The notes under the pieces: generated by a model | What the model saw: the letters and a program-made list of their open reading frames with translations, nothing else | The model's database searches: none | What the model was told of the DNA's origin: nothing | DNA from: Pseudobacteriovorax antillogorgiicola | GTDB taxonomy: Bacteria; Bdellovibrionota_B; Oligoflexia; Oligoflexales; Oligoflexaceae | Direction of reading: 5' to 3' | Assembly (NCBI RefSeq): GCF_900177345.1 | Contig: NZ_FWZT01000012.1 | Span: forward strand, 1-64,000 | Length of the DNA stretch: 64,000 nt | Program-made: the position numbers and the translations under genes | In this document: positions 27,798 through 56,117 of the stretch, one piece after another | How positions within the stretch are numbered: position 1 is the first letter of the stretch | How the letters are laid out: every line of letters begins with the position of its first letter

Positions 27798-27874
27798 GCG
27801 GGAGTAGCTCAGTTGGCTAGAGCGACGCGTTGCCATCGCGTAGGTCGAGGGTTCGAGTCCCTTTTCCCGCTCCA
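27798..27874 (+). tRNA. tRNA-Gly (GCC), copy 1
   Basis: 77 bases, CCA encoded. The acceptor stem GCGGGAG pairs with the TTCCCGC end. The anticodon stem ACGCG/CGCGT encloses TTGCCAT, giving anticodon GCC, and the T loop is TTCGAGT. The discriminator base T is typical for Gly. This copy differs from copies 2 and 3 by one base in the T loop (G for A). Confidence 0.97.
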
Positions 27875-27889
27875 TCAAGACACACCCAA

Positions 27890-27966
27890 GCGGGAGTAGC
27901 TCAGTTGGCTAGAGCGACGCGTTGCCATCGCGTAGGTCGAGGGTTCGAATCCCTTTTCCCGCTCCA
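27890..27966 (+). tRNA. tRNA-Gly (GCC), copy 2
   Basis: 77 bases with encoded CCA and anticodon GCC in the loop TTGCCAT. It follows copy 1 after 15 bases and is identical to copy 3. It is probably processed from the same precursor. Confidence 0.97.
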
Positions 27967-27985
27967 TTCTAGTTTATACCCAAAA

Positions 27986-28062
27986 GCGGGAGTAGCTCAG
28001 TTGGCTAGAGCGACGCGTTGCCATCGCGTAGGTCGAGGGTTCGAATCCCTTTTCCCGCTCCA
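27986..28062 (+). tRNA. tRNA-Gly (GCC), copy 3
   Basis: 77 bases with encoded CCA and anticodon GCC. It is identical to copy 2 and follows it after 19 bases. No clear terminator hairpin is seen in the 145 bases before the histidine kinase gene, so read-through is possible. Confidence 0.97.
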
Positions 28063-41537: not shown

Positions 41538-43712
41538 CTAATTCTTTCCCTGATAGATGACGGTACTACCCTGGCTGCACTGAATTTCTGACTTTGTTGA
41601 GAACACCAGTGGCCCTACAATATCACAAAGTTTCTGACAACTTCGTTTATCGCTAACACTAGCTTGGTATAAGACCTCCTCTTGTCCATCGCCATCAACT
41701 CTCACCAACTTACAACTCGCGCTTCCAGCAAGCGATAAGGCATTGACATCGCCAAACGTAAGATCTTTGTTTAGATCTATGTCTAAGGCAATTAACTGCG
41801 ATTCAAACTGTCGCCCCTGAGTATCCGTAACTCGTGCGAATACCTCTGCCTCAGCAAAGCCTAATGGCACATCGATATCGATGGATGTCGCGCCACCGGA
41901 AGACTCTCCGATAAGCTCTTCGTCATGGAAAATTTCGATTTTTTGAATTGGCGCATATTTCTCTTCGGTTTGTAGACTCAAACTGAAAGTGCTACCCCGT
42001 GTCGGTCGAATCACATCGCCAACCTCTTGAATCGTAGCCTTAGCCTTAACTGCATCCATGAAGGCATTGAGATCCATCGATCTTGAATTATTCACAGCCT
42101 TTGAGAAGTTTCCTGTCACGGAACTGGCTAGCAACTCAGCCTTCACTTCTTGAGCTGTTAAATCTGGGGCATAAGACCAAAACAAGGCGACTGCACCAGC
42201 CACATGGGGCGAGGCCATCGATGTCCCGCTTAGGGGTGCATACGCCTCGTTCGGGCTTGGCGCTAACGATGTTGGAATCGTAGAGACAATGTCTTGACCT
42301 GGTGCAGCGATATCGACGGAGGTCTGACCAAAGTTAGAAAATACAGCTAGGTCGCCTCCTCCATGGAGAGCTGCCACTGAAATGATTCCCGGATCTTCAT
42401 ACGATGCTGGATAAGCCGGTTGAAGATCATTGTCATTGTTCTCATTTCCTGCAGCGATCACCAGCAACTTACCTGCGCTGGTGTTAGTCGCAATTGCGTT
42501 AACTTCGAGCTGACTAGGAGGACCTCCCCCCAACGACAAATTCATAAGCTTAGCATTAGTTTGGGATACATACGTTAAGCCGTTAATAATCATCTCAGAC
42601 GTTCCAAAGCCTTCGTCACCAAGGACTTTTACGGCGATGATTTGAGCCTTCCAACAAACTCCGGTGATACCTAACTGGTTGTCACCCAACGCTCCGATCG
42701 TACCGGCTACGTGGGTTCCGTGCGCCTGACGATCGATGAAGTCATCAATATTTGCCGACGAGTAGTCCCGACTCAGACCTGGCAGAACATTATCTTTGAG
42801 ATCGGGGTGATTGGGATCAATTCCCGTGTCAAGCACTGCCACGATTGTATTCGAACAATCCGTTAGATTTTCCCAGGCAGCATCAGCTTGAATGTCCATA
42901 TCCGGTGTAAAAGGGGTATCACCGATAGGGTCCTGACCATTATTCGCAAGGCCCCATAAAGTGTTGTAAAGGGTATCATTGGGGACTCGCGTCGAGTAGC
43001 TTAGGGAGTTTCCCGTACTGTATGCGACGAGAGGGTCTATGGCTGTTTCTTCTTCCAACCGGTCCTGCTTCGCTAAGCCCAAATCCTGGTATTCAAAAAG
43101 ATAGGTGTTCTCTTGAAGCAAATTCTTCGACTTCTTTATGCCGTGCTTCACTTCAAATTCACGAATGTCATCATCTGCAATGGTGTCCTTGAATTGAACC
43201 AAAAGATGATTTGCAATGTAGACGTAGGACTGCTTGACTTCAGTCTTATCCGCGGAAAGCGTATCGCGGATGATGAAGTTTTGAAATGATTTATGATTCG
43301 CTCGCACCAGGGTTGCTCGCGTTGGGTTGCCGTCTCGATCAAAACCTTCTTTGCTTTCCAATACTTCGCTATCGCGAAGATAGGCTAGATGCTTATCTTT
43401 AAGAGACGCAAAACGCGGCTTTGGGGACGTAGGCTTTCGTACTTCTACTTTCCGAGATCCGTTCGCTTGTTCTATCCGTACCGGCTGAATGCGAGGCTCT
43501 TCAGAGCTTTCAGTCACGAAGCGATTGAAGCCAGACTCAGCAAAACTCGTAGGCGACACTGGATTTTCAGAAGAAATGGTTTCCTCTGCTGCTATCTCAC
43601 TAATTTTATTATTTTGTCCTGTAGATGGAAGCTCTCGATCCAGTTTTAAATAAAGAAACATACCAACGGCAAGCGTTCCCAACGCCAGCCCTACCCGTAA
43701 GGTGTATTTCAT
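41538..43712 (-). CDS. Exported subtilisin-like serine protease (S8)
   Basis: A 724-residue protein with a signal anchor or signal peptide (about 4-23), a ~260-residue N-terminal region (propeptide-like part near 165-210), and a subtilase domain. The triad is Asp295 (VAVLDTGID), His331 (HGTHVAG) and Ser498 (GTSMASPHVAGA), with the oxyanion Asn in AAGNEN at 423. A C-terminal ~150 residues form beta-rich, Cys-containing domains. It should act outside the cytoplasmic membrane. It is cotranscribed with the lipoprotein downstream, and divergent from a small helical protein. Confidence 0.92.
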   Translation of the reverse strand: MKYTLRVGLALGTLAVGMFLYLKLDRELPSTGQNNKISEIAAEETISSENPVSPTSFAESGFNRFVTESSEEPRIQPVRIEQANGSRKVEVRKPTSPKPRFASLKDKHLAYLRDSEVLESKEGFDRDGNPTRATLVRANHKSFQNFIIRDTLSADKTEVKQSYVYIANHLLVQFKDTIADDDIREFEVKHGIKKSKNLLQENTYLFEYQDLGLAKQDRLEEETAIDPLVAYSTGNSLSYSTRVPNDTLYNTLWGLANNGQDPIGDTPFTPDMDIQADAAWENLTDCSNTIVAVLDTGIDPNHPDLKDNVLPGLSRDYSSANIDDFIDRQAHGTHVAGTIGALGDNQLGITGVCWKAQIIAVKVLGDEGFGTSEMIINGLTYVSQTNAKLMNLSLGGGPPSQLEVNAIATNTSAGKLLVIAAGNENNDNDLQPAYPASYEDPGIISVAALHGGGDLAVFSNFGQTSVDIAAPGQDIVSTIPTSLAPSPNEAYAPLSGTSMASPHVAGAVALFWSYAPDLTAQEVKAELLASSVTGNFSKAVNNSRSMDLNAFMDAVKAKATIQEVGDVIRPTRGSTFSLSLQTEEKYAPIQKIEIFHDEELIGESSGGATSIDIDVPLGFAEAEVFARVTDTQGRQFESQLIALDIDLNKDLTFGDVNALSLAGSASCKLVRVDGDGQEEVLYQASVSDKRSCQKLCDIVGPLVFSTKSEIQCSQGSTVIYQGKN

Positions 43713-45011: not shown

Positions 45012-45884
45012 CTAGCGGAACCACATGCGGTGGATGGTATGAAACATTTCATTATCTGGATCGTTATCGCATTCCCAATCGTTACTATCCAGGCTGGAAC
45101 CAATGGACCAATGAGATAAGTTATTGTTGCCACGGAAGGTGGTTTCAGTGAGTGCCCGGTCTAAGCGCTCCCCATCACCACCCGTATTGAGGCCCGGTAA
45201 GTTCGTTGTATGACCGGTCAGGGCTATAAAGCTCCCTTCGACACCATTACAGCTACCGGCGCCTTTACGACCATAGTCTAAGCATGTTGCTAAATCGGTT
45301 TTAAAGTGAAGAACTCGATTGTGATCGTTAGTTCGACAAAAAAAGCGAAGCTCTGTGAAATTGAACATCGATAGTAGCGAGGGTGCAATATGTCCCCAAA
45401 AAGCTGAATTCTGCTCGTCGTCACCAAGCTGACTTGAATTTAGCATAGGCATGCTATCAGTCCTGGTGGTCAGCGGTGGATTCGTGGCTCCCTGGTGAAC
45501 ATAGTTCAATATCATGGTCCAGCCACCACCTTCCTCGGTCATATCACAGTAAGCATCGAGAAACTGTTGTTCGCCAAGTTCGTCTTGATAGAAAAGCCGA
45601 TAAACTCCAGATGGCGCCTCAGCAATCTTTTCTTGTACGTCTAAACAACTTGAAAACGCAAGGTAAGCAACTTGCTCAGAGCCAGGAATGACTTCGTAAA
45701 CCTCTTCCTGAATAATTTCTACCGCCGCCTCTTCCTGAGATACCGCATCCTGATTCAAGGGGCCAGGTACGGTTACCGTCGACTCCGTATTCAGGCTCGT
45801 AAATCCTGGTTCATCTTGGTTCTCAGCCTGACAGCCCAGGGATGCTAGGAAAAGGACGAAGTAAATCATATTTTTCGAGTACAT
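45012..45884 (-). CDS. Lipoprotein with fibrinogen-like domain
   Basis: A 290-residue protein. A signal peptide with lipobox LASLGC (Cys at about 18 from the ATG at 45884) is followed by a ~75-residue acidic linker, then the pattern SSCLDVQEKI, SGVYRLFYQD, YCDMTEEGGGWTMIL. This is the N-terminal part of fibrinogen-like/ficolin-type (FReD) domains, followed by a Cys-containing globular region ending MFHTIHRMWFR. Such domains bind sugars or acetyl groups in animals. The frame extends to 46055, but that start would precede the signal peptide. It lies 194 bases downstream of the secreted array. Confidence 0.7.
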   Translation of the reverse strand: MYSKNMIYFVLFLASLGCQAENQDEPGFTSLNTESTVTVPGPLNQDAVSQEEAAVEIIQEEVYEVIPGSEQVAYLAFSSCLDVQEKIAEAPSGVYRLFYQDELGEQQFLDAYCDMTEEGGGWTMILNYVHQGATNPPLTTRTDSMPMLNSSQLGDDEQNSAFWGHIAPSLLSMFNFTELRFFCRTNDHNRVLHFKTDLATCLDYGRKGAGSCNGVEGSFIALTGHTTNLPGLNTGGDGERLDRALTETTFRGNNNLSHWSIGSSLDSNDWECDNDPDNEMFHTIHRMWFR

Positions 45885-46077: not shown

Positions 46078-47331
46078 TCAATCTCTCCCGGGCAGTATCC
46101 GAAACCCAACCGTACGGGTGAATCTAACGCCTTCGAGAAAACGGATACTTTCCTCCGCTGACAGGTTAAGCTCCACCGAATGCTCGTGGCGATAGGAAGC
46201 CAAACTGATCAATCGCATTAGATTGTCGATTGATTCACAGTCTGATTGCTCTGGACATAGTCCATCTTTAAACACGTCGCTACCAAGGGCGTTCGGGTAA
46301 CGCTCGCCATCGAGATCAACCAATTGCTGGAGCCGCTGACAATAGTATATACTTTGATCGGCTGAAACTTGTCTACAATCGAGCTGCGCCCAGACCTGCT
46401 CCATAAGCCTAGCTTTACTTTCTTTAAGTGCTTGGCTCCAAAAGGTGTTAGCAGCCAGCCCTGCTATGAGACCCGGGCTTGCCCTTTCGACTTTAAATTG
46501 AAAACTCTGATCAAAATAATTACGAATTCTAGCAATGCTATGCTTCGCCTTCCAAAACCATGCCTCAACGTGACTGCTCTGATCGACCCTTTGTAGAAAA
46601 CTTCTTAGCTTGAAGGACGCACTCCAAGCGACTTGTGTGATCAGGCTATATTCGTAGGCAAGATTAACTGAAACAGTCTCTAGATAGGATTTGATCCCAT
46701 TGTCATTGAATTGACCATCATCACCTAATAGCTGACAAGATTGCTCCCAAGGAATCAGTATGTTTCCCAAGGCCTGATCATGAAATATAAGTCCGTCACT
46801 GGCGCCTGGAACTGTCAGAGGGCTGTTGCTGGAAATCAATAGGCTCGCGGTTTCTATGGGCAGTTTTGTAACTTCAAAGCGCCTTGGATTCTGTCTACCA
46901 AGTTCCTTCACGTGCTCGGTCCATCCCGGCGTTGAAAGCTTGATGAGAACTTTCACATGAGGTCCCTCCTTAAGCCGAGAATCTTTTTGGTCTATTAAGA
47001 AGCTCATGCTCTCGATGAACTCGTAATCCCAGGATTCCCAATTGGATTGCCCAAGATAGCTATCAAGCTCCGCTTCAAGTTCATCCCTCGATTGTCGAAG
47101 CTCTCTCGCTTCTTGACAGCTTTCTAAAGTGACTAGCCCGGGATCAACTCGAAAAACCTCTAAGTCCCCTTCCTTTAAGGGAAGAACAAAAGCAGTTTTG
47201 CAATCCTGACTAAAAAAGACTTCGCGGCTGCCCTTAAAACCATGGCAATGCTTTCCTAACACAGGGTAAACGTTGCTAAGTAAAGCTTCAGTGGGCCATA
47301 ACAAAGCCAACAACCATAGATAGTACCTCAT
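46078..47331 (-). CDS. Secreted six-Cys-domain protein A (paralogue array)
   Basis: A 417-residue exported protein; the signal peptide ends near ALLS. It has the array's N-box (HCHGFKGSREVFFSQDCKTA, then FVLP), a third Cys (ESCQEAR), the QNPRRFEV motif, a fourth Cys (EQSCQLLGDD), the FQFKVE strand and a C-terminal CPEQSDC pair. I recognise no known family. The last gene of the paralogue run; AGGAG lies five bases before its ATG and overlaps the end of the preceding gene, so it is translationally coupled. Confidence 0.75.
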   Translation of the reverse strand: MRYYLWLLALLWPTEALLSNVYPVLGKHCHGFKGSREVFFSQDCKTAFVLPLKEGDLEVFRVDPGLVTLESCQEARELRQSRDELEAELDSYLGQSNWESWDYEFIESMSFLIDQKDSRLKEGPHVKVLIKLSTPGWTEHVKELGRQNPRRFEVTKLPIETASLLISSNSPLTVPGASDGLIFHDQALGNILIPWEQSCQLLGDDGQFNDNGIKSYLETVSVNLAYEYSLITQVAWSASFKLRSFLQRVDQSSHVEAWFWKAKHSIARIRNYFDQSFQFKVERASPGLIAGLAANTFWSQALKESKARLMEQVWAQLDCRQVSADQSIYYCQRLQQLVDLDGERYPNALGSDVFKDGLCPEQSDCESIDNLMRLISLASYRHEHSVELNLSAEESIRFLEGVRFTRTVGFRILPGRD

Positions 47332-47339
47332 ACCTACTC

Positions 47340-48557
47340 CTAATAATATATGGTGCCAGTCTTTACTTCGATTTCTTCGCCTATAGAAACAACATGCTCT
47401 GAGTCGTAGCGTTGAGTACTATTCAGGATATAAGACCTCCCGTTGAACTGAAGCAGTCTCTTAAGCAAAAAACTGGTAGTTTTGGCCCGAATACAGCTGG
47501 AATCGTCACTCTTGTCACAAAATGCCTGAGTCATAGCTTGTTCAAGCTGGTGGATTGAGTCTAAATCCTTAGGGTGTGGGGCTGGTGGCTGAATACCTCC
47601 TGGGGAATCCAGGATATTTAGCTGAGACTCTTGCGCGAACTGGCTAAGAAAATCGAGCCTCACCTGCTTCATAATTTCGAGATAGAACTTATCTGACCGA
47701 GCCGGGTGGCGCTCCAGAACTTCAAATTCAAAGTAGCTGTCGCTATAAAAACCGATAAATTCAGACATCGACCAGAATCCTAATGAACTGGTAAAATTTG
47801 TTCTTAGATCACGAATCAAGCGCTTCGCCCTAAACCGAGCTCGATATGAAATTGGGCTATAGAAGCCAAAGACATGATTTACATTGATAATCTCCGAAAA
47901 TATCCTCTTGGCATCGTCATCCGATAACTCTCCATTCTTAACTCGCGGGCATACCTCAGATAGCTTATAGTGGGCTGTTCCAAGAGTTGCTCCGCTATAG
48001 GTGTGAAACGAGGTCGGCAAACTTAAGTCAAATGAGATACGGTTCTGGTCAAAGTGGGCAAGGCTATGGAGAGGATATAGAGGCAGGATTTGAAAGTCGG
48101 GGTTTTCGATTCCAAGATTGTCAATCACTTCAAAGGGTGGTTGGTTATCGATGATGAACTCGATTTCAAGACCGTTCCTATCTGCTAGCTTGGCTGAAAT
48201 CTCCTTGAGACTTTTCAGAGCCTCGGTTTTTTCAGCTATAGCCAGGCTTATTCCAGGGTCTGGATTATCGCGAACTTGTCGTAAAAGACCTTCGATGTCA
48301 GTCTCGATTTTTTTCTCTCGATCTTTCATTAGAGAATAGAAATTACACTCTCCAATCTCTTTTCGAACCCCCTTCAAGTTAAAACGTCTGTCGCGATGAG
48401 GACTTACGTAAGCCTCCGAGCACGACTCATCAAAAAAAACATTCTCTGACGATGAGATTGACTTGAAGTCGGGGCACTGCTGACCCAACACTGGCTGACC
48501 CAACACTGATTGACTCAATATTGGCGCAAGAAAAAAAACAGCGATCTTTAAGTTCAT
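47340..48557 (-). CDS. Secreted six-Cys-domain protein B (paralogue array)
   Basis: A 405-residue exported protein (MNLKIAVFFLAPIL signal). The N-box is QQCPDFKSISSSENVFFDES, then CSEAYVSP. Other landmarks are GECNFYS, ENPDFQIL, EVCPRVK, FEFEVLE and FCDKSDDSSC. The ATG at 48557 has AGGAGG three to seven bases before it and lies ten bases after the SUMF1-like stop. The signal peptide ends in a repeated LSQSVLGQPVLGQQ encoded by three near-identical 15-base repeats. Function unknown. Confidence 0.75.
   Translation of the reverse strand: MNLKIAVFFLAPILSQSVLGQPVLGQQCPDFKSISSSENVFFDESCSEAYVSPHRDRRFNLKGVRKEIGECNFYSLMKDREKKIETDIEGLLRQVRDNPDPGISLAIAEKTEALKSLKEISAKLADRNGLEIEFIIDNQPPFEVIDNLGIENPDFQILPLYPLHSLAHFDQNRISFDLSLPTSFHTYSGATLGTAHYKLSEVCPRVKNGELSDDDAKRIFSEIINVNHVFGFYSPISYRARFRAKRLIRDLRTNFTSSLGFWSMSEFIGFYSDSYFEFEVLERHPARSDKFYLEIMKQVRLDFLSQFAQESQLNILDSPGGIQPPAPHPKDLDSIHQLEQAMTQAFCDKSDDSSCIRAKTTSFLLKRLLQFNGRSYILNSTQRYDSEHVVSIGEEIEVKTGTIYY
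48481..48525. repeat. Three tandem 15-base repeats in a signal-peptide coding region
   Basis: TGACCCAACACTGGC, TGACCCAACACTGAT and TGACTCAATATTGGC lie head to tail at 48481, 48496 and 48511. They encode repeated SQSVL/GQPVL/GQQCP residues at the signal-peptide cleavage region of the protein, a potentially slippery, copy-variable site. Confidence 0.8.
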
Positions 48558-48567
48558 GGGACACCTC

Positions 48568-49308
48568 CTATCGTTTATACCAAACGCAGCGGAACCCCAC
48601 TTGCTGGGCGGCTTCATCTGCACTTAAAATCAATGACGCGGCAAATATCCCAGAGTCCTCACCACTATCCCAAGCTCCCCCTCGTATCAGGCTAAGTTTC
48701 TGTTCTTCAGCCGCTTCGGCCGGATGCACCAACCAAACCTTTCCGAGCGACCGCGCATCAGAGGATCGATAATCTTTGTGAGGACCAAATTGTCGGATTA
48801 GTTCGATACGGGGTAACTGATAAGCAAAGAAATGTCCCGGTTTGAGCGACTCAAGAGGTTTCTCTGTATTAACCCTCTCCCACAAATTCCCTGAAAAATC
48901 CCAGACGACCTTATCTCCCCCTGTAAAGTGAAAGCGTCGTATTTGACTTTCTCGGTCTAGTTGTCCAGTGGCCCCTCCTTGGCTCCGACGATGGTTCCCT
49001 TGATGAAGCCTTTCCCCTTGCCAGTTTCTTGAATCCTGCTCAATCAGACGAGCGACTATCTGCCACTGTTGATTGTTCACCAATCCAAAACGAGGGCCAT
49101 TAGCCTCACATCCACGTTTTGCATCATCGAGGCTTGCTTGACTCCACAACCCCAATTGCTCATCTGCTACTGCAAGTCCCTGACTGCCCTTTCGGGCCTC
49201 CATGCTCATTAAGCAAAAGTCTTCATTGATATCGACATAACCCTCTGGGCAGGAGTATCCTGGGGCCGAAATGAGAATAGCCAAAAGAAGTAAGCCTTTT
49301 TTATTCAT
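48568..49308 (-). CDS. Exported SUMF1/formylglycine-generating-enzyme-like protein
   Basis: A 246-residue protein; signal peptide MNKKGLLLLAILISAPGYS. The pattern DFCLMSMEA, SLDDAKRGCEANG, NLWERV, IRGGAWDSGEDSGIFAA and GFRCVWYKR marks the FGE-sulfatase (SUMF1) fold. The two catalytic Cys of true enzymes are not apparent, so it is more likely a structural or binding variant. The ATG at 49308 (GGAG seven bases upstream) is preferred; an upstream Met at 49431 lies inside the neighbouring gene. It begins just after gene D and ends ten bases before gene B. Confidence 0.75.
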   Translation of the reverse strand: MNKKGLLLLAILISAPGYSCPEGYVDINEDFCLMSMEARKGSQGLAVADEQLGLWSQASLDDAKRGCEANGPRFGLVNNQQWQIVARLIEQDSRNWQGERLHQGNHRRSQGGATGQLDRESQIRRFHFTGGDKVVWDFSGNLWERVNTEKPLESLKPGHFFAYQLPRIELIRQFGPHKDYRSSDARSLGKVWLVHPAEAAEEQKLSLIRGGAWDSGEDSGIFAASLILSADEAAQQVGFRCVWYKR

Positions 49309-49312
49309 GGAA

Positions 49313-52300
49313 TCACTCCACCATTTCAAAATCGCTTGCACGGTAAACCCGTGGCAACGACAGGGTACGGGTTTCAGATCTCTTGATTTGAAACTCTGTT
49401 TGAATTTCAAAATCTCGTATCGTTCCCCCAATATCAGATGTTGCTTTCAAGCCATACAGAAGATGCAAGGGCAAACAGTCCATCTCCTCGGCAAAGCTAT
49501 CAAATACTGCGCTAAACCCGCCTGCAACGTGATCACCTCGACAGATTAATTGCTCAGTCACCTCACGGATAAGTTGATCTGGAATTTTTGGTTCTCGCGA
49601 TGAAAAGTCTATCTTTGATTGAAATACCTTTCTAAACAATCGATCATAGCTTTGACCAAGCTCCGTTAGCATACTCCGACCCACTTCAATCCTGAGACGA
49701 TTAATATCATCCTGCTCAAGACTCAGCGATGAGTCTTCAAGGCTAAACTGAAAAACATCGAACACATCATCTTTTGAGCGAGACAAATTAGCTCTGATCG
49801 AAATAAAGAAAAAGTCCAGATCGAACTTCCACCAAAGATGATCAAATAATCTCTTGACGTTCAACGACGCCTGATAATCGACCTCTCCTGAGACAGCATA
49901 GTGGTGGTCAATCCTTGGCATTAGCAGAGCTGTAAGGGCTTCACGATCTTCACCCAAGGCGCAAGACATAGGTAAACCTAAATGAGCTTGGACGTTCAAC
50001 ATGTGATATCTTTGAGATCCAAACTGCATATCATAGTCGATGGCGATACTTTCCAGATGATCCTTAATTCCCAGATGTACCTCTTGGCCAGACAAAGGTA
50101 CCACATGCCACTGAAACCAGGGGTTCCTTGACCGATAGTGTTCTAAGTGTGACTCGAAGTCTTGAACGATATGGAAGTTAATCTCACGACCCCTGAGCTG
50201 ATGATAGGTTCTCTCAAGCGTATGAATTTCACTTTCCACAACCGAGCTTAGGTCTTGCCACTCCTTAAATGATTCTTCGGTGTCGAGGTTTTGAATTTGA
50301 TCCATTCGACTCAATTGCCATTGATGCTTTCGCAGCTGCAGTTGCCGAAAGTCACCACAAAGGTCCATATTGAGGTGTGAAACGGTGTCGTGAATGACAA
50401 GAGTTCCATGATTTGGGGGTGTGATATAGGCAGTCTGGCAATCGCTATCAAAGTAAATCACATCATCGGAATCTGGGTTTTGATCGATGGAACCACAATC
50501 CCGCCTTAAGCTCGGCGCTGACTTCATACTAGTATTTATCTTTAGGCTATCCAAGTGCTCTAGTTCAGAGAATCCTATGCGCCTGAGTCTGCGGTGGGTT
50601 CTGAAGTCTTCTTTTACAAGGCCCTCACCGCCTCCTGAATGAGGATTGCTTGAGATTAAATCATCCTCATCCCCGGCCTTCTCACCCTGCTCGTCACTAT
50701 CATTCAGTTTCGATCGCGGTTTAAGATGCAGACCCACCAAGGACTGCTTTTTCGGGTAAACATCTAGCAACTGGTACTCAAAAATCCTTTGCCGCCCATC
50801 TCGTGGGGCATATGCCAAGGTTAAACCTTCAGAGTTTGCATTCAGGGCCTCAGTTTGCCAGTAGCTACCAATACAAGGAGCTGAAGACTCCCAGAAACAT
50901 CCGTTGAAGTAGTATTCGGGAGAGACACTTGAGTCTACTAGGTCTTCCGTGGGATAAGATTCGCTCTTTGCCACCAAAGCGCGCAATGCAGCTTCCTTGA
51001 CAGCACGGCGTTCTAGCAAACCAAAGGCGTCATCTTCGTCTTCCACTGAGAAGCTGTACTCTAGGTCGATTGCATGATCCACATTGATATCCCAGATCAA
51101 AGTTGCCAGTGAGGACAAGCCAATATTTTTGAACTTCCCCCTGATATCAGCATGCATGGTAAGCCGAGCATTCACCGCTCTTGATGCTAGGCTGCTATAG
51201 TTGGCTAGCAGGTTCAAGCCTGGCTTATAATCTTCGTGACAGGCTTCTTCAAGACTCAAGGCCTGATAGATGGTCCATGTGTTGCTATCAGCTTCGAGGG
51301 ATAATAGAGGTTCATCCCCGACCCCAAGTTCAAAGGACTCAATTTCCAGAGGGCGCCACTCAATAGACAAATCTGGATTCAACTCCTTGTAATCTGACGT
51401 TGCGTGCTGACGAGAAACTTTCAAGGTATAAGCTTGCTGAATTGATGGCTGCTTTGCTAAGTGCTCCATTTCCTTGAGCACCTGCCCCATGTAAGCAGCA
51501 TTATCGAACATAGAAGCATCGGAGCTTAGCTGCTTTACTTGATTCCGCAACTCGTCCCACTGAGTACATTCTTCAGGCCTTTCATGACCTTGACTTTCAA
51601 GGGACATCTCTAGTGTCGGAATCACGAATGCGTACTGACACGCCCTGCTGAACTTCAGTCCGGGAGATCGCTCTGGGTGCTCGATGGCATAGCCACACAG
51701 ATCTTTATAGGCTGCTTTTTCTTCCTCTTGAACTGCCATTGGCCTGGCTCGTTGCCAGCGGCCGTCCTTGTGAACAGAATATAAATCGTTGAGCCCTCCC
51801 CCTCGCTTTAGCACTAGTTCCTGCCGCCCATCGCCATTGACATCGAAGAGATGCATTTGGTCTCTTTTTATTTGCGCTGCGAGACCCAGACTTTGGTGAT
51901 CAATGATCTCGGGATTCCGCCCCCCTTGGCTAAGTAGGAGCAGAATGCGTCCCCCCTCTAAGGGCACCATTAGGTCGGTTGTGGTATCGCGATCGAGGTG
52001 ACCATCCAAAATCCGGATATCGAGTGGAGTCCAGGACCTCTTATAGTAGTAAGATCTCATCCTTTCGTAGGTGAAGCTACGATTCTTCTCTCGAATCAGG
52101 AAAGACCTTGGCTTTGACATCAAAAGAGTCGAGCCTCCCCAATAGTAGATCGGTTGCTTCTCTCGTATCAGATAATCTTTATACTCCGAGCTTTGGTAGA
52201 CTAACACCTCCCAACTGGAGAAAGGACTCTGCCGTTCATAAATATTAGCCTCCCCTCGCAGAGGCGTAGCGAGAAGAACAACTAACATGCCGAGCAAAAA

Positions 52301-52333
52301 GTGATTACTCGCTATTCTGTGTAAATACAACAT
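49313..52333 (-). CDS. Large secreted protein D with two copies of the six-Cys domain and an FG-GAP-like N-terminus
   Basis: About 1006 residues with a signal peptide (LLGMLVVLLATPLRGEA). Residues about 110-190 resemble FG-GAP/VCBS repeats, with a calcium-loop-like DVNGDGRQE near 164-172. A first family domain starts near Cys213 (CGYAIEHPER...FSRACQYAFVIP; LNPDLSIEW; EEACHEDY; YSFSVE). A low-complexity acidic linker (about 545-590) leads to the second domain from about 613 (CGSIDQNPDSDDVIYFDSDC, QTAYITPP; RNPWFQW; PMSCALGE; FQFSLED). The ATG at 52333 is preferred to one at 52369; the gene overlaps E by 29 bases. Confidence 0.75.
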   Translation of the reverse strand: MLYLHRIASNHFLLGMLVVLLATPLRGEANIYERQSPFSSWEVLVYQSSEYKDYLIREKQPIYYWGGSTLLMSKPRSFLIREKNRSFTYERMRSYYYKRSWTPLDIRILDGHLDRDTTTDLMVPLEGGRILLLLSQGGRNPEIIDHQSLGLAAQIKRDQMHLFDVNGDGRQELVLKRGGGLNDLYSVHKDGRWQRARPMAVQEEEKAAYKDLCGYAIEHPERSPGLKFSRACQYAFVIPTLEMSLESQGHERPEECTQWDELRNQVKQLSSDASMFDNAAYMGQVLKEMEHLAKQPSIQQAYTLKVSRQHATSDYKELNPDLSIEWRPLEIESFELGVGDEPLLSLEADSNTWTIYQALSLEEACHEDYKPGLNLLANYSSLASRAVNARLTMHADIRGKFKNIGLSSLATLIWDINVDHAIDLEYSFSVEDEDDAFGLLERRAVKEAALRALVAKSESYPTEDLVDSSVSPEYYFNGCFWESSAPCIGSYWQTEALNANSEGLTLAYAPRDGRQRIFEYQLLDVYPKKQSLVGLHLKPRSKLNDSDEQGEKAGDEDDLISSNPHSGGGEGLVKEDFRTHRRLRRIGFSELEHLDSLKINTSMKSAPSLRRDCGSIDQNPDSDDVIYFDSDCQTAYITPPNHGTLVIHDTVSHLNMDLCGDFRQLQLRKHQWQLSRMDQIQNLDTEESFKEWQDLSSVVESEIHTLERTYHQLRGREINFHIVQDFESHLEHYRSRNPWFQWHVVPLSGQEVHLGIKDHLESIAIDYDMQFGSQRYHMLNVQAHLGLPMSCALGEDREALTALLMPRIDHHYAVSGEVDYQASLNVKRLFDHLWWKFDLDFFFISIRANLSRSKDDVFDVFQFSLEDSSLSLEQDDINRLRIEVGRSMLTELGQSYDRLFRKVFQSKIDFSSREPKIPDQLIREVTEQLICRGDHVAGGFSAVFDSFAEEMDCLPLHLLYGLKATSDIGGTIRDFEIQTEFQIKRSETRTLSLPRVYRASDFEMVE

Positions 52334-53465
52334 AATGCTCTCGATCGTGAACTTGGTTTTCGTCGCCATATTCTTTAAACGTCAGGTTTTGCAGATACTC
52401 AAGATCATTTGCTGCAATACCAATAGACAGCAGACTTTGGATCGCGCTCAGCAATCCTAGGGTTTGACCGCAGCGTCCACCACAGACTTCCTGTGACATC
52501 AAACTATCCAGTGCCCGCCCGACTTGGCTCCGTGCGCCGAGCAGTTGCGCCAAATCTTCAGTAGTGTCTGCATCAGGATTCGAGAATGATCGGTACCAAC
52601 GCCCGTGTTCGATAACTCGCTTGCCTAGGCGTACCTTCGTTGCTTCTACCACAGACTGGATATAATCACGGTCGATGTGAGGGCCAGTCTCCAAAACTTC
52701 AAATTTAAATCGTTCGTGATCGCTATCGAAGGTCCATAAATGTCTAGCATGGAAGGTTATAAAGAAAATTTTAACTTGGACAACACTATCAATATACTTA
52801 AAAAGGTCTCGAATTCTCAATTCAGCGCGATAGCGAAGTGTCCGATGCACCGAATAATTGTAAGGGACTGTAACTCCTGCTACGTTAAGACTATCGAGGT
52901 CCAGCTGCTTAGAGTGAGAATCGTAGTGACCACATACCTCACCTAGGCTTAAGAAATAGTGCTGCCGATGTCCACCTCGAAAAACACTTGAGTAAGATGC
53001 TAGCTTGTCGTTCTCAAGTGGCTTGTTTTGCAAATCCAGTCTATGGACACTGTACCCCGGATTAGCCTGTTTAAAATCGCTTATCAACCGATCCCAACCG
53101 AGTTCTAAATTGACGTTTACTATCAAAGCCGGTGTTTCACGGGTTTTAGAATCGTTTTCTATGAGCCAAGAAACCTTGCTGAAGTCTAGTACGGATGTGC
53201 CCAATTGTAGCAACGCCTCCCTTAAGTTGCGAGAACGTTCTAGAACCTGGCATTGAGAGTTCAGTTCCACCATCGCTTGAGTACTTTCAATGCGCATTTT
53301 CCCATGACTCGGAGGAGCGACCCATGCGGTGCTACAATCTTTCGAAAAAAGGATTCGGGATTGGCGATCGACAGCTTTATGCGGGCAACTTAGCCCTTCA
53401 TGAGGCGCTTTTGACCAACCGACTGTACTGAAAATCCATATTGCTAAAACTGATAGATAATTCAT
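52305..53465 (-). CDS. Secreted six-Cys-domain protein E (paralogue array)
   Basis: A 386-residue exported protein; signal peptide MNYLSVLAIWIFSTVGWS. The N-box is LSCPHKAVDRQSRILFSKDC, then STAWVAPP. Also present: NSQCQVL, ANPGYSV, GEVCGHYD, FKFEVLE and the CGGRC pair near 325. GGAG lies seven bases before the ATG. It starts one base after gene F ends and overlaps gene D's start, so the three are tightly coupled. No known family recognised. Confidence 0.75.
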   Translation of the reverse strand: MNYLSVLAIWIFSTVGWSKAPHEGLSCPHKAVDRQSRILFSKDCSTAWVAPPSHGKMRIESTQAMVELNSQCQVLERSRNLREALLQLGTSVLDFSKVSWLIENDSKTRETPALIVNVNLELGWDRLISDFKQANPGYSVHRLDLQNKPLENDKLASYSSVFRGGHRQHYFLSLGEVCGHYDSHSKQLDLDSLNVAGVTVPYNYSVHRTLRYRAELRIRDLFKYIDSVVQVKIFFITFHARHLWTFDSDHERFKFEVLETGPHIDRDYIQSVVEATKVRLGKRVIEHGRWYRSFSNPDADTTEDLAQLLGARSQVGRALDSLMSQEVCGGRCGQTLGLLSAIQSLLSIGIAANDLEYLQNLTFKEYGDENQVHDREHYVVFTQNSE

Positions 53466-53466
53466 G

Positions 53467-53817
53467 TTAAGGCTCCGACATCTCGTTCATAAGAGCTTCG
53501 ATATAGGAAAGCCTCAGTCTGGTTTGTAGCTTCAAAAGGGATTCCAACCTCTCTCGCTCTGCCTGAGGCAAGTCCTGCCTGTTTAGCTTTTCAACCAAGC
53601 CCTGCTCGATTGCCTGCTGATCAACTTTAGCAAGCTCTATAGATAAAGTTTGCAACGACGTTGAAGCACTGCGATCAATCTTTGTCGGTACCTCTGGAGA
53701 AAGCTTATTGGCCATAGATACTTCTCTACTTTCACGTTGAACTGATAGAAAATCACTATACTTGCCAATACCAAGTCCGCCCAAGAAGACGATCATCAAT
53801 GTCACTGCATACTTCAT
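53467..53817 (-). CDS. Small membrane-anchored coiled-coil protein F
   Basis: A 116-residue protein: one N-terminal hydrophobic segment (YAVTLMIVFLGGLGIGKY) that could be an anchor or uncleaved signal, then a charged, Leu-rich helical part (about 50-105). I do not recognise it. It is inserted between genes G and E of the array in the same direction and one base from E, so it is probably part of the same system. Confidence 0.6.
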   Translation of the reverse strand: MKYAVTLMIVFLGGLGIGKYSDFLSVQRESREVSMANKLSPEVPTKIDRSASTSLQTLSIELAKVDQQAIEQGLVEKLNRQDLPQAERERLESLLKLQTRLRLSYIEALMNEMSEP

Positions 53818-53866
53818 AGCTACCCTTCAGTAGAGCCCTAGTCCAATGTTCTAGGGCTCTTGAAAT

Positions 53867-55168
53867 CTATTTAAGCTGAAATGTCATCGTACTTTCACGA
53901 TTGATATACTGACCCAATTCGATGGATTCTGTCAGCTCTCCAGAAACATCAAAGGTGATCTTCTGCGAGACACTCACAAAGTCAATCAGTCCTAGGACAC
54001 TCGACACCAGCTCTCCTTTTTGGCAAGAAGAGACATCATCATCGCCGCAGAACCGATCACTTACAGCTTCCTTCAGAGATTCCAAGGCCTCTCTGCGGTC
54101 TTCATCATCTGAAGGATTGTCTGGCTCTAGGTCTTTGTTTATAGCGATATCCTGACAAATCAATTTCTTCTGCGGGAAGGCGTCAAGATTCTTGCTACAA
54201 TCAAACTCATCAGCCATGCGAGACATGAAGTTCGCTTTAACTTCAAGCATGATATCAACATACGTTTTTGGGTTGTCGCCTCCAATAATAATACTACTGT
54301 CGGGATTATGGCCCAAGACTTCAAACGAAAAATGCTCAGACTTATGACTGTTGATCAGCAGGTCCTCATGCTTACCTTTCCAAAAAGCGACTTCAGCTTC
54401 CAAGTCAAATTCCATCCGTTGGATAAATTCTTTCTTTTTGAAGCTAGCTGTCCAACCCAGTGGAGTGAAAACCTTCGTTGTTAGAACGACGTTAGGAGCA
54501 ATCTTGGCAAAATAGTCTTTTTCGGAGAGCCCGTCCCGTAGATTGCCTTGATCATCGAATGACGAGCAAAGCTCTCTCAAGTTGAGTTGGAGATGTACAC
54601 TGGCACTACCGTTAAATGGAATCTTGTGCTCCTGAAGCGATGTAGCAGCGACACGAGACAAGGCCTGACTAGACACCGATAGCTGACCATCAGATATGCT
54701 TGCACTTTGTACTCTAAAGCCCGGGTTTTCGTCCGCAATTCTATCGAGAAGCTTGTTCCAGTCATATTTCAGGATAAAGCCTAGATCAACTGCTGGTTCT
54801 TCGCCCAAGATAGATAGCCGTTCGATTTGCCTCTCAATGGTAGCAATCTTTTCGCTATCAAAATCTCCCTCTAAAATCAAGTCAGTTAGCCTTTGGTTTA
54901 GGCTATCAATCAGGGTATCATGACGATCCAATCGAGAGCATTGACTCATCTTGCCGATATGAGGGAAAAAACCTGTAAGCTCTGCAACACCAAGTTCAGG
55001 TGGACCAGCAAAGACAGTCTCGCAATCCTCAGTAAAATAGACAGCTCCCATATTTTCGACCGCTCGAAACCCTGGGCATGACTGCCCTAAAGTTGGTGTT
55101 TGTGAGCTAGCAGCCGCACCAGAAGCCCACAACCCTAAACCTAGTCCAATTCCGAAAAGCACCTTCAT
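53867..55168 (-). CDS. Secreted six-Cys-domain protein G (paralogue array)
   Basis: A 433-residue exported protein; signal peptide ends near GAAA. The N-box is QSCPGFRAVENMGAVYFTED, then CETVFAGPP. It shares MSQCSRL, ENPGFRV, RELCSSFDDQG, FSFEVLG and FCGDDDVSSC with the other copies. GGAGG is eight bases upstream of the ATG. It is the most complete and regular copy. It follows gene H after 104 bases. Confidence 0.78.
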   Translation of the reverse strand: MKVLFGIGLGLGLWASGAAASSQTPTLGQSCPGFRAVENMGAVYFTEDCETVFAGPPELGVAELTGFFPHIGKMSQCSRLDRHDTLIDSLNQRLTDLILEGDFDSEKIATIERQIERLSILGEEPAVDLGFILKYDWNKLLDRIADENPGFRVQSASISDGQLSVSSQALSRVAATSLQEHKIPFNGSASVHLQLNLRELCSSFDDQGNLRDGLSEKDYFAKIAPNVVLTTKVFTPLGWTASFKKKEFIQRMEFDLEAEVAFWKGKHEDLLINSHKSEHFSFEVLGHNPDSSIIIGGDNPKTYVDIMLEVKANFMSRMADEFDCSKNLDAFPQKKLICQDIAINKDLEPDNPSDDEDRREALESLKEAVSDRFCGDDDVSSCQKGELVSSVLGLIDFVSVSQKITFDVSGELTESIELGQYINRESTMTFQLK

Positions 55169-55272: not shown

Positions 55273-55695
55273 TCAGGGTTCTACTTTTCCAAACGAAACA
55301 CCTTCTACTTCAGCCCAAGTGTTACTTTCACTGCAGCTATATTCGCTGATCTGTAGACGAACCTTCTCTCTATGAAACATTGCTGACAGCAGCATGGGAA
55401 CAAGTTGCTCTCTTTTTGATTCATCCACTGTCAGCAGATAAGAGTTCCTTGCATTGCTACGATAGCAACTGCGATGAAGCTTACGATCAACCTTCCTTAC
55501 CTGGACTACGATGTAGCCAGGGCTTGACTCGATCCAAGCATCCTTTATTTTCGGATCACGGTACTTCGATAACTGAAGCGACTTTTTCATCTCGACCCCT
55601 ACGATCAATGACTTATCGGTCCAGATCGATTGACCGAACGCTGTTAACGAACCAATTGACAAGGCCAGTGCCAAGAATCCATTAAATCCTGTCAT
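55273..55695 (-). CDS. Small secreted protein H, paralogue of I
   Basis: A 140-residue exported protein; signal peptide MTGFNGFLALALSIGSLTAFG. SIWTDKSLIVGVE, a Cys before YLLTVDE, a second Cys near SEYSC and a closing AEVEGVSFG match the pattern of its neighbour I. I recognise no family. Its start overlaps I's stop by four bases (ATGA). It probably functions with I as a pair. Confidence 0.6.
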   Translation of the reverse strand: MTGFNGFLALALSIGSLTAFGQSIWTDKSLIVGVEMKKSLQLSKYRDPKIKDAWIESSPGYIVVQVRKVDRKLHRSCYRSNARNSYLLTVDESKREQLVPMLLSAMFHREKVRLQISEYSCSESNTWAEVEGVSFGKVEP

Positions 55696-56117
55696 CGTTC
55701 TTCCTCCAATGACTGAGAACTCAAACGAACACCTGTAACACGCGCAACTTTCCTTCCTGCTACAGACGCTGGAGCACAGAGATCTATATCAGACGTTTCA
55801 AGCTGAACGGGAACTTTCAAGTTGTGACTACTAAATAGCAAACTAAACAGATGGTTGCGAAAAGGTGCAGGAGCGTCCAACAAATACACACCATCACGGT
55901 GGGTTAGATCGCATGACTTATTAAGCCTCGTATCGCTACCATCAGTATAGAGAAACATTCCATAGGTAGGCAGATAGGCTTCTGATTTAGAGTTTAGTGC
56001 GATATCCACGCGACCCAGAACAATCGAGTCGATGAGCAAATCTTTTGTCCAGTAGGTTCTTGCCATGACAGGCTCAACGGAAGCAAGAGTCAGCAAGACA
56101 AGCATAAGTAATTTCAT
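55692..56117 (-). CDS. Small secreted protein I, paralogue of H and first gene of the array
   Basis: A 141-residue exported protein; signal peptide MKLLMLVLLTLASVEPVMA. YWTKDLLIDSIVL, CDLTHRDGVYLLD, LC and RVTGVRLSS align in order with gene H. GGAGG lies five bases before the ATG at 56117, so this is preferred to an upstream Met at 56129. A TATACT that could be a -10 box lies about 15 bases upstream of the ribosome site. Confidence 0.6.
   Translation of the reverse strand: MKLLMLVLLTLASVEPVMARTYWTKDLLIDSIVLGRVDIALNSKSEAYLPTYGMFLYTDGSDTRLNKSCDLTHRDGVYLLDAPAPFRNHLFSLLFSSHNLKVPVQLETSDIDLCAPASVAGRKVARVTGVRLSSQSLEEER

Follow-up and report, generated by a model that had tools for sequence, protein, structure and literature searches.

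What is the run of closely spaced genes for exported proteins in Pseudobacteriovorax antillogorgiicola, and what might its products do together? The stretch analysed here (the window) comprises positions 1 to 64,000 of contig NZ_FWZT01000012.1, and our study centred on the array at 46078-55168 and its flanks. An original prediction, made from the sequence of the window, had described six copies of one Cys-rich domain belonging to no recognised family, each with the same ordered landmarks, in what looked like a multi-component envelope or secreted system. We take these points in turn: whether the copies are one family, what that family looks like elsewhere, which genes are conserved with it, and what role best fits.

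The nine predicted open reading frames, A to I, were all recovered in place, and all lie on the minus strand. The small exported proteins I (55692..56117) and H (55273..55695) are a diverged pair, as had been proposed (phmmer E values 3e-4, I to H, to 5e-4); gene I has no match in Pfam, PADLOC, PHROGs or the PDB. G (53867..55168), E (52305..53465), B (47340..48557) and A (46078..47331) encode short-form proteins of the family that we call FAM, while D (49313..52333) encodes an N-terminal region, for which Pfam offers only an FG-GAP match at E 0.11, followed by two FAM domains, D1 (50582..51724) and D2 (49316..50581). F (53467..53817) encodes a small protein with an N-terminal membrane segment and a C-terminal helix, and C (48568..49308) an exported protein with a SUMF1/FGE-like fold. 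Going from G to A, successive genes are separated by 49, 1, -29, 1, 7 and 8 bp. A putative lipoprotein gene (45012..45881, minus strand; lipobox LASLGC) lies 22 bp downstream of A and is possibly on the same transcript; scans for promoters and terminators gave site numbers no higher than in shuffled sequence, leaving the transcript ends undefined. Elsewhere in the window are a secreted S8 subtilase gene a few genes downstream of the array (41538-43712) and three tRNA-Gly(gcc) genes in tandem (27798-28062); another S8-like gene, judged from its sequence, lies near a FAM gene in a second locus (L033, 2041-3501).

The domain copies in A, B, E, G and D2 are homologous. They are joined by phmmer at E values of about 1e-5 to 2e-27 (G-A 2e-27, G-B 2e-19, G-E 1e-16, A-B 6e-9, and about 3e-11 to 8e-11 for E-D2), the exception being the B-D2 pair, near 1e-3. 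D1 is the weakest and least certain copy: its best pairwise value is 9e-4, with E, a profile lacking D1 detects it at 5e-6, and a wider, more divergent profile gives 0.28, where the reversed D1 sequence gives 560. The predicted series of landmarks (Cys, core motif, Cys, NP, Cys, FxF, Cys pair) is complete in B, D1, D2, E and G; A departs from the strict pattern, with NPRRF against NPx[FYL], and keeps all six cysteines. When each copy was shuffled 2000 times, this order never appeared (0/12000 in total). Identity among the copies is low, about 14-26 percent, which could be read as a chance likeness of Cys-rich secreted proteins that form no single family; we regard this as so improbable that it can be set aside, since it conflicts with the E values and the shuffles just given and is already contradicted by the detection of window copies with profiles made from other genomes.

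The window array is a fast-diverging, short-form branch of the wider family FAM. A profile of the window copies found two more FAM proteins in the same genome, of 581-597 aa, on contigs 8 and 4; these long forms carry the window-copy motifs together with a long coiled coil. In its standard form FAM has about 550 residues, with a coiled-coil hairpin of ~13 nm between two beta-strands. In the reverse direction, a long-form profile built without this genome finds E, D, A and G at 9e-9 (E itself) to 1e-5, and B at 0.011 only. The defining features of the family (in long-form numbering a V-x-P-P-x-x-G strand, C81, C367, a closing Cys pair and an export signal) are present, with the V-x-P-P-x-x-G motif relaxed in B.

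FAM also has members in genomes that share the family, order and class of this one and, in named records, in Pseudobacteriovorax sp. DT_89, an Oligoflexia bacterium, an Oligoflexales bacterium and three Bacteriovoracaceae MAGs. A search of 369 genomes from the phylum of one of these MAGs gave matches at E below 1e-12 in about 42; weak genome matches that covered no more than roughly profile positions 80-250 were set aside as generic coiled coil. FAM occurs mostly in Bdellovibrionota and relatives, and the only member found outside Bdellovibrionota-type genomes is on plasmid pAK76 of Sinorhizobium meliloti (E 1e-62), where it belongs to a run of three genes annotated hypothetical. On this conjugative plasmid (NZ_CP066360.1) the FAM relative and its two hypothetical companions (L105:8218-11772) lie near a caspase-family gene. 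A divergent FAM copy on contig 17 of the genome studied here (L059:4744-10945) has a C3-cluster gene and a gene for a von Willebrand A protein nearby, and same-class genomes contain stop-interrupted, apparently decayed copies (G049:C1:522385-524057 and L058:9618-11318). Array neighbours in L037 and L038 were considered as more FAM copies (649-682 aa) and as copies of the partner protein C1 described below (502-514 aa), and neither assignment found support. No match indicating a virus or phage origin was found among viral contigs or phage records.

The long-form model (pLDDT 76.9, pTM 0.55) is surest in the hairpin, whose helices 76-167 and 174-251 have 92 and 78 residues, corresponding at 1.5 Angstrom per residue to a length of about 13 nm, and form a block with pLDDT >80, mostly >90, flanked by strands 64-74 and 255-265. 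The rest of the model, including two 22-residue strands, is less sure, and the beta region is mostly at pLDDT 40-87. In the AlphaFold model of G (mean pLDDT 72, pTM 0.55) the hairpin is cut down to helices of 26 and 15 residues. Foldseek searches with these moderate-confidence models gave no significant match for G (best E 0.16 in the PDB and 0.17 in BFVD) and coiled-coil matches only for the long form (best 2e-3). The latter include the SMC arm 5xg2 and the N-terminal domain of RipA, 6ewy (E 2e-3 to 7e-3), which resemble FAM in hairpin geometry only, and share neither its beta base nor its cysteines nor its gene context.

The topology raises the possibility that FAM acts as an adaptor for transport or secretion, in the manner of membrane fusion proteins, with its hairpin docking to an outer-membrane partner. 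FAM is exported, as judged from its hydrophobic export signals, and the long antiparallel coiled-coil hairpin modelled between its beta-strands recalls the topology of periplasmic adaptors such as MexA and HlyD; both were among the weak Foldseek matches. However, those matches have E values of 0.04-1 and TM scores of about 0.1-0.2 by query length, there is no sequence match to these proteins, the window copies have short hairpins, and no transporter or TolC-like gene recurs in the 38 operons described below. We consider an adaptor of this kind quite improbable.

Cysteine pairing was followed through an alignment of 40 FAM members. The equivalent of C367 is present in all 40 rows and that of C81 in 38, and a C-terminal Cys pair is found in 39 members. 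The N-terminal Cys pair is absent from about half of the members (both cysteines in 18, neither in 19), two cysteines occur at the hairpin tip in 22 members and none in 14, and the total number of cysteines is even in 38 of 40; exceptions to pairing include one signal-peptide Cys and two rows with an alignment slip at C81. Paired cysteines are therefore kept or lost together, as expected of extracytoplasmic disulfides. This covariation supports the three predicted disulfides per window domain, with C31-C49, C77-C201 and C374-C382 expected in G; the pairing of C81 with C367 is assigned by elimination. The prediction of six shared cysteines held for every window copy (A and G each carry one further pair, 324 and 338 in G) but does not extend to the whole family, since the first two are confined to the window copies and some relatives. 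Two other members have an additional pair with one cysteine in each hairpin helix (122/206 in L099:8785-10488; 117/200 in L100:8498-10144), which suggests a possible cross-hairpin disulfide.

The array itself is not the unit of conservation: the order I-H-G-F-E-D-C-B-A was seen in no relative. We cut 38 loci around FAM and clustered their genes; these loci were picked by FAM, so that the counts speak to its partners and not to FAM itself. The conserved unit is FAM-C1-F-C3-C4, in which F, as a member of cluster C2, is the only other array gene included. C1 directly follows FAM in 31 of the 38 loci; in 21, C2 then comes next after C1 or is separated from it by no more than one gene, and eight have the complete order FAM-C1-C2-C3-C4. 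C1 is a protein of about 320 aa with a Cys-Asp motif, exported by hydropathy, whose only library matches are to coiled coil or are weak and scattered. Window gene F belongs to C2, a family of small membrane-anchored proteins, and is found at 1.5e-8 by a C2 profile that contains no sequence of this genome. C3 (about 210 aa) and C4 (about 90 aa) have lipoboxes, read directly, in most members. In an independent search C1 was found in 27 of the same 369 genomes, all 27 of which also carry FAM, a co-occurrence that is inflated by shared ancestry. FAM is not a homolog of C1 or C3 (hhalign probabilities of 1.7 and 9.4 percent).

No C1 is detectable by profile in the window array, and H and I, considered as diverged forms of C1, C2 or C3, were not detected by the profiles of those clusters; nor was any counterpart of H or I detected in the other FAM loci. 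Both long-form loci of this genome do have C1 relatives (1.3e-8 in L016, 0.002 in L015). Downstream of FAM and of relatives of C2 and C1, the contig 8 long-form locus (L015:14950-17742) also encodes a C25 peptidase that is gingipain-like and has a propeptide. The window array is a derived expansion with F and without detectable C1. In a 41-row tree its five copies form one group (support 100/99), and the two long forms of this genome group together, beside copies from two same-class genomes. Branches to the window copies are long (2.0-3.2 changes per site), which makes their exact placement unsure; the simplest reading of these sequences is that the array arose by local duplication with fast divergence.

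Such expansion and divergence could be variation of binding, if FAM proteins were at the cell surface and served, with gene C and the lipoprotein downstream of A, to bind glycans of prey, host or substrate. Both of these neighbours have a lectin-like aspect. Gene C passes the Pfam cut-off for the FGE-sulfatase family PF03781 (24.1 vs 23.3 bits), in agreement with its original assignment as SUMF1-like, and the lipoprotein shows the start of a fibrinogen C-terminal domain (PF00147, E 7e-4), although below the curated cut-off and over 49 aligned residues. Catalytic FGEs have a Cys after RGGxW. Gene C reads RGGAWDSGED (RGGAWDSGEDSG) there and ends in GFRCVWYKR; the catalytic cysteines of formylglycine-generating enzyme, by this general motif, are missing, and formylglycine-generating activity is therefore not expected. 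Gene C also lies outside the conserved operon, with one relative near a FAM operon, in a Bacteriovoracaceae MAG (L053:4877-5671; phmmer 1.1e-7). A surface adhesin or recognition system finds support in the long-branched single group of window copies and in these two neighbours, but neither lectin-like gene belongs to the conserved operon, no route for outer-membrane export was found in the operon, and the long branches may in part be artefact; we view this role as possible, if rather unlikely.

Could FAM belong to some family already known? The window FAM proteins fit no family in Pfam, NCBIfam, PHROGs or PADLOC, in line with the original failure to assign the domain. A Pfam scan of 40 FAM members gave weak scattered hits, mostly to coiled-coil families, and a sequence search of the PDB gave nothing beyond generic coiled coil; its matches, such as myosin and tropomyosin, cover the coiled-coil stretch alone and were not counted. 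A defence system was likewise rejected, the sole match being a coiled-coil match to JetC. We found no description of FAM in the literature searched, and a comparative-genomics paper (PMC11656739) gave no match to the terms tried. With the libraries used, FAM and its operon are apparently not assignable to a known kind. The novelty lies in the protein family and the operon, which may yet turn out to be a new set of components for a known process.

Homology of the copies, the conserved operon and Cys pairing are well supported; a physical complex, the membrane location of its parts and a mainly structural or adaptor role are inferred. Our preferred reading, to which we give somewhat less than an even chance, is that A, B, D, E, F and G are subunits of a disulfide-stabilised, multi-subunit complex of the cell envelope. 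FAM subunits would be exported and oxidised, and the standard form would project its modelled ~13-nm hairpin from a beta-rich base. F-type proteins, through an N-terminal segment that stays uncleaved, would anchor the complex at the inner membrane. In relatives, C1 would act as a soluble partner and the lipoproteins C3 and C4 would link the complex to the outer membrane. An envelope-bound complex is indicated by the combination of exported, oxidised subunits with lipoproteins and a small anchored protein, and because the operon core includes no ATPase, channel or enzyme, a structural or adaptor role is preferred. Counting against this reading are the absence from the operon of any energy source, channel or known envelope family, the undetected C1 of the window array and the pLDDT of mostly 40-87 in the modelled beta region. 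The window array would be a second, diversified version, with five FAM genes, six domains and one shared F anchor. Of the original prediction, an exported multi-gene set outside known families is supported; the array as the unit of conservation is not.

Predation had been among the proposed roles, and FAM proteins might be secreted effectors or toxins of predation or competition, as befits expanded, divergent copies in a phylum with many predators and a C25 peptidase gene in one long-form locus. We detected no toxin, immunity or enzymatic domain, however, and partners that are anchored or lipoproteins are more easily reconciled with a stationary complex. Patchy presence, in about 42 of the 369 genomes searched, and the copy on a rhizobial plasmid also argue against effectors, and against predation as the defining trait; we consider an effector role very unlikely.

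The FAM operon, then, probably encodes an uncharacterised piece of cell-envelope machinery. More ambitiously, and only tentatively, FAM and C1-C4 may form a trans-envelope machine not described before, in which a new beta fold bears a coiled-coil arm on the scale of the periplasm. Such a machine would be widely shared among Bdellovibrionota-type bacteria, and this genome would have evolved a second, heteromeric version of it from five diversified FAM genes. This is a conserved multi-gene exported system with no match in the curated or fold libraries used, in a phylum studied for its predators. It offers a concrete target, with defined genes, expected disulfides and an expected anchor, that is testable in cultured relatives.
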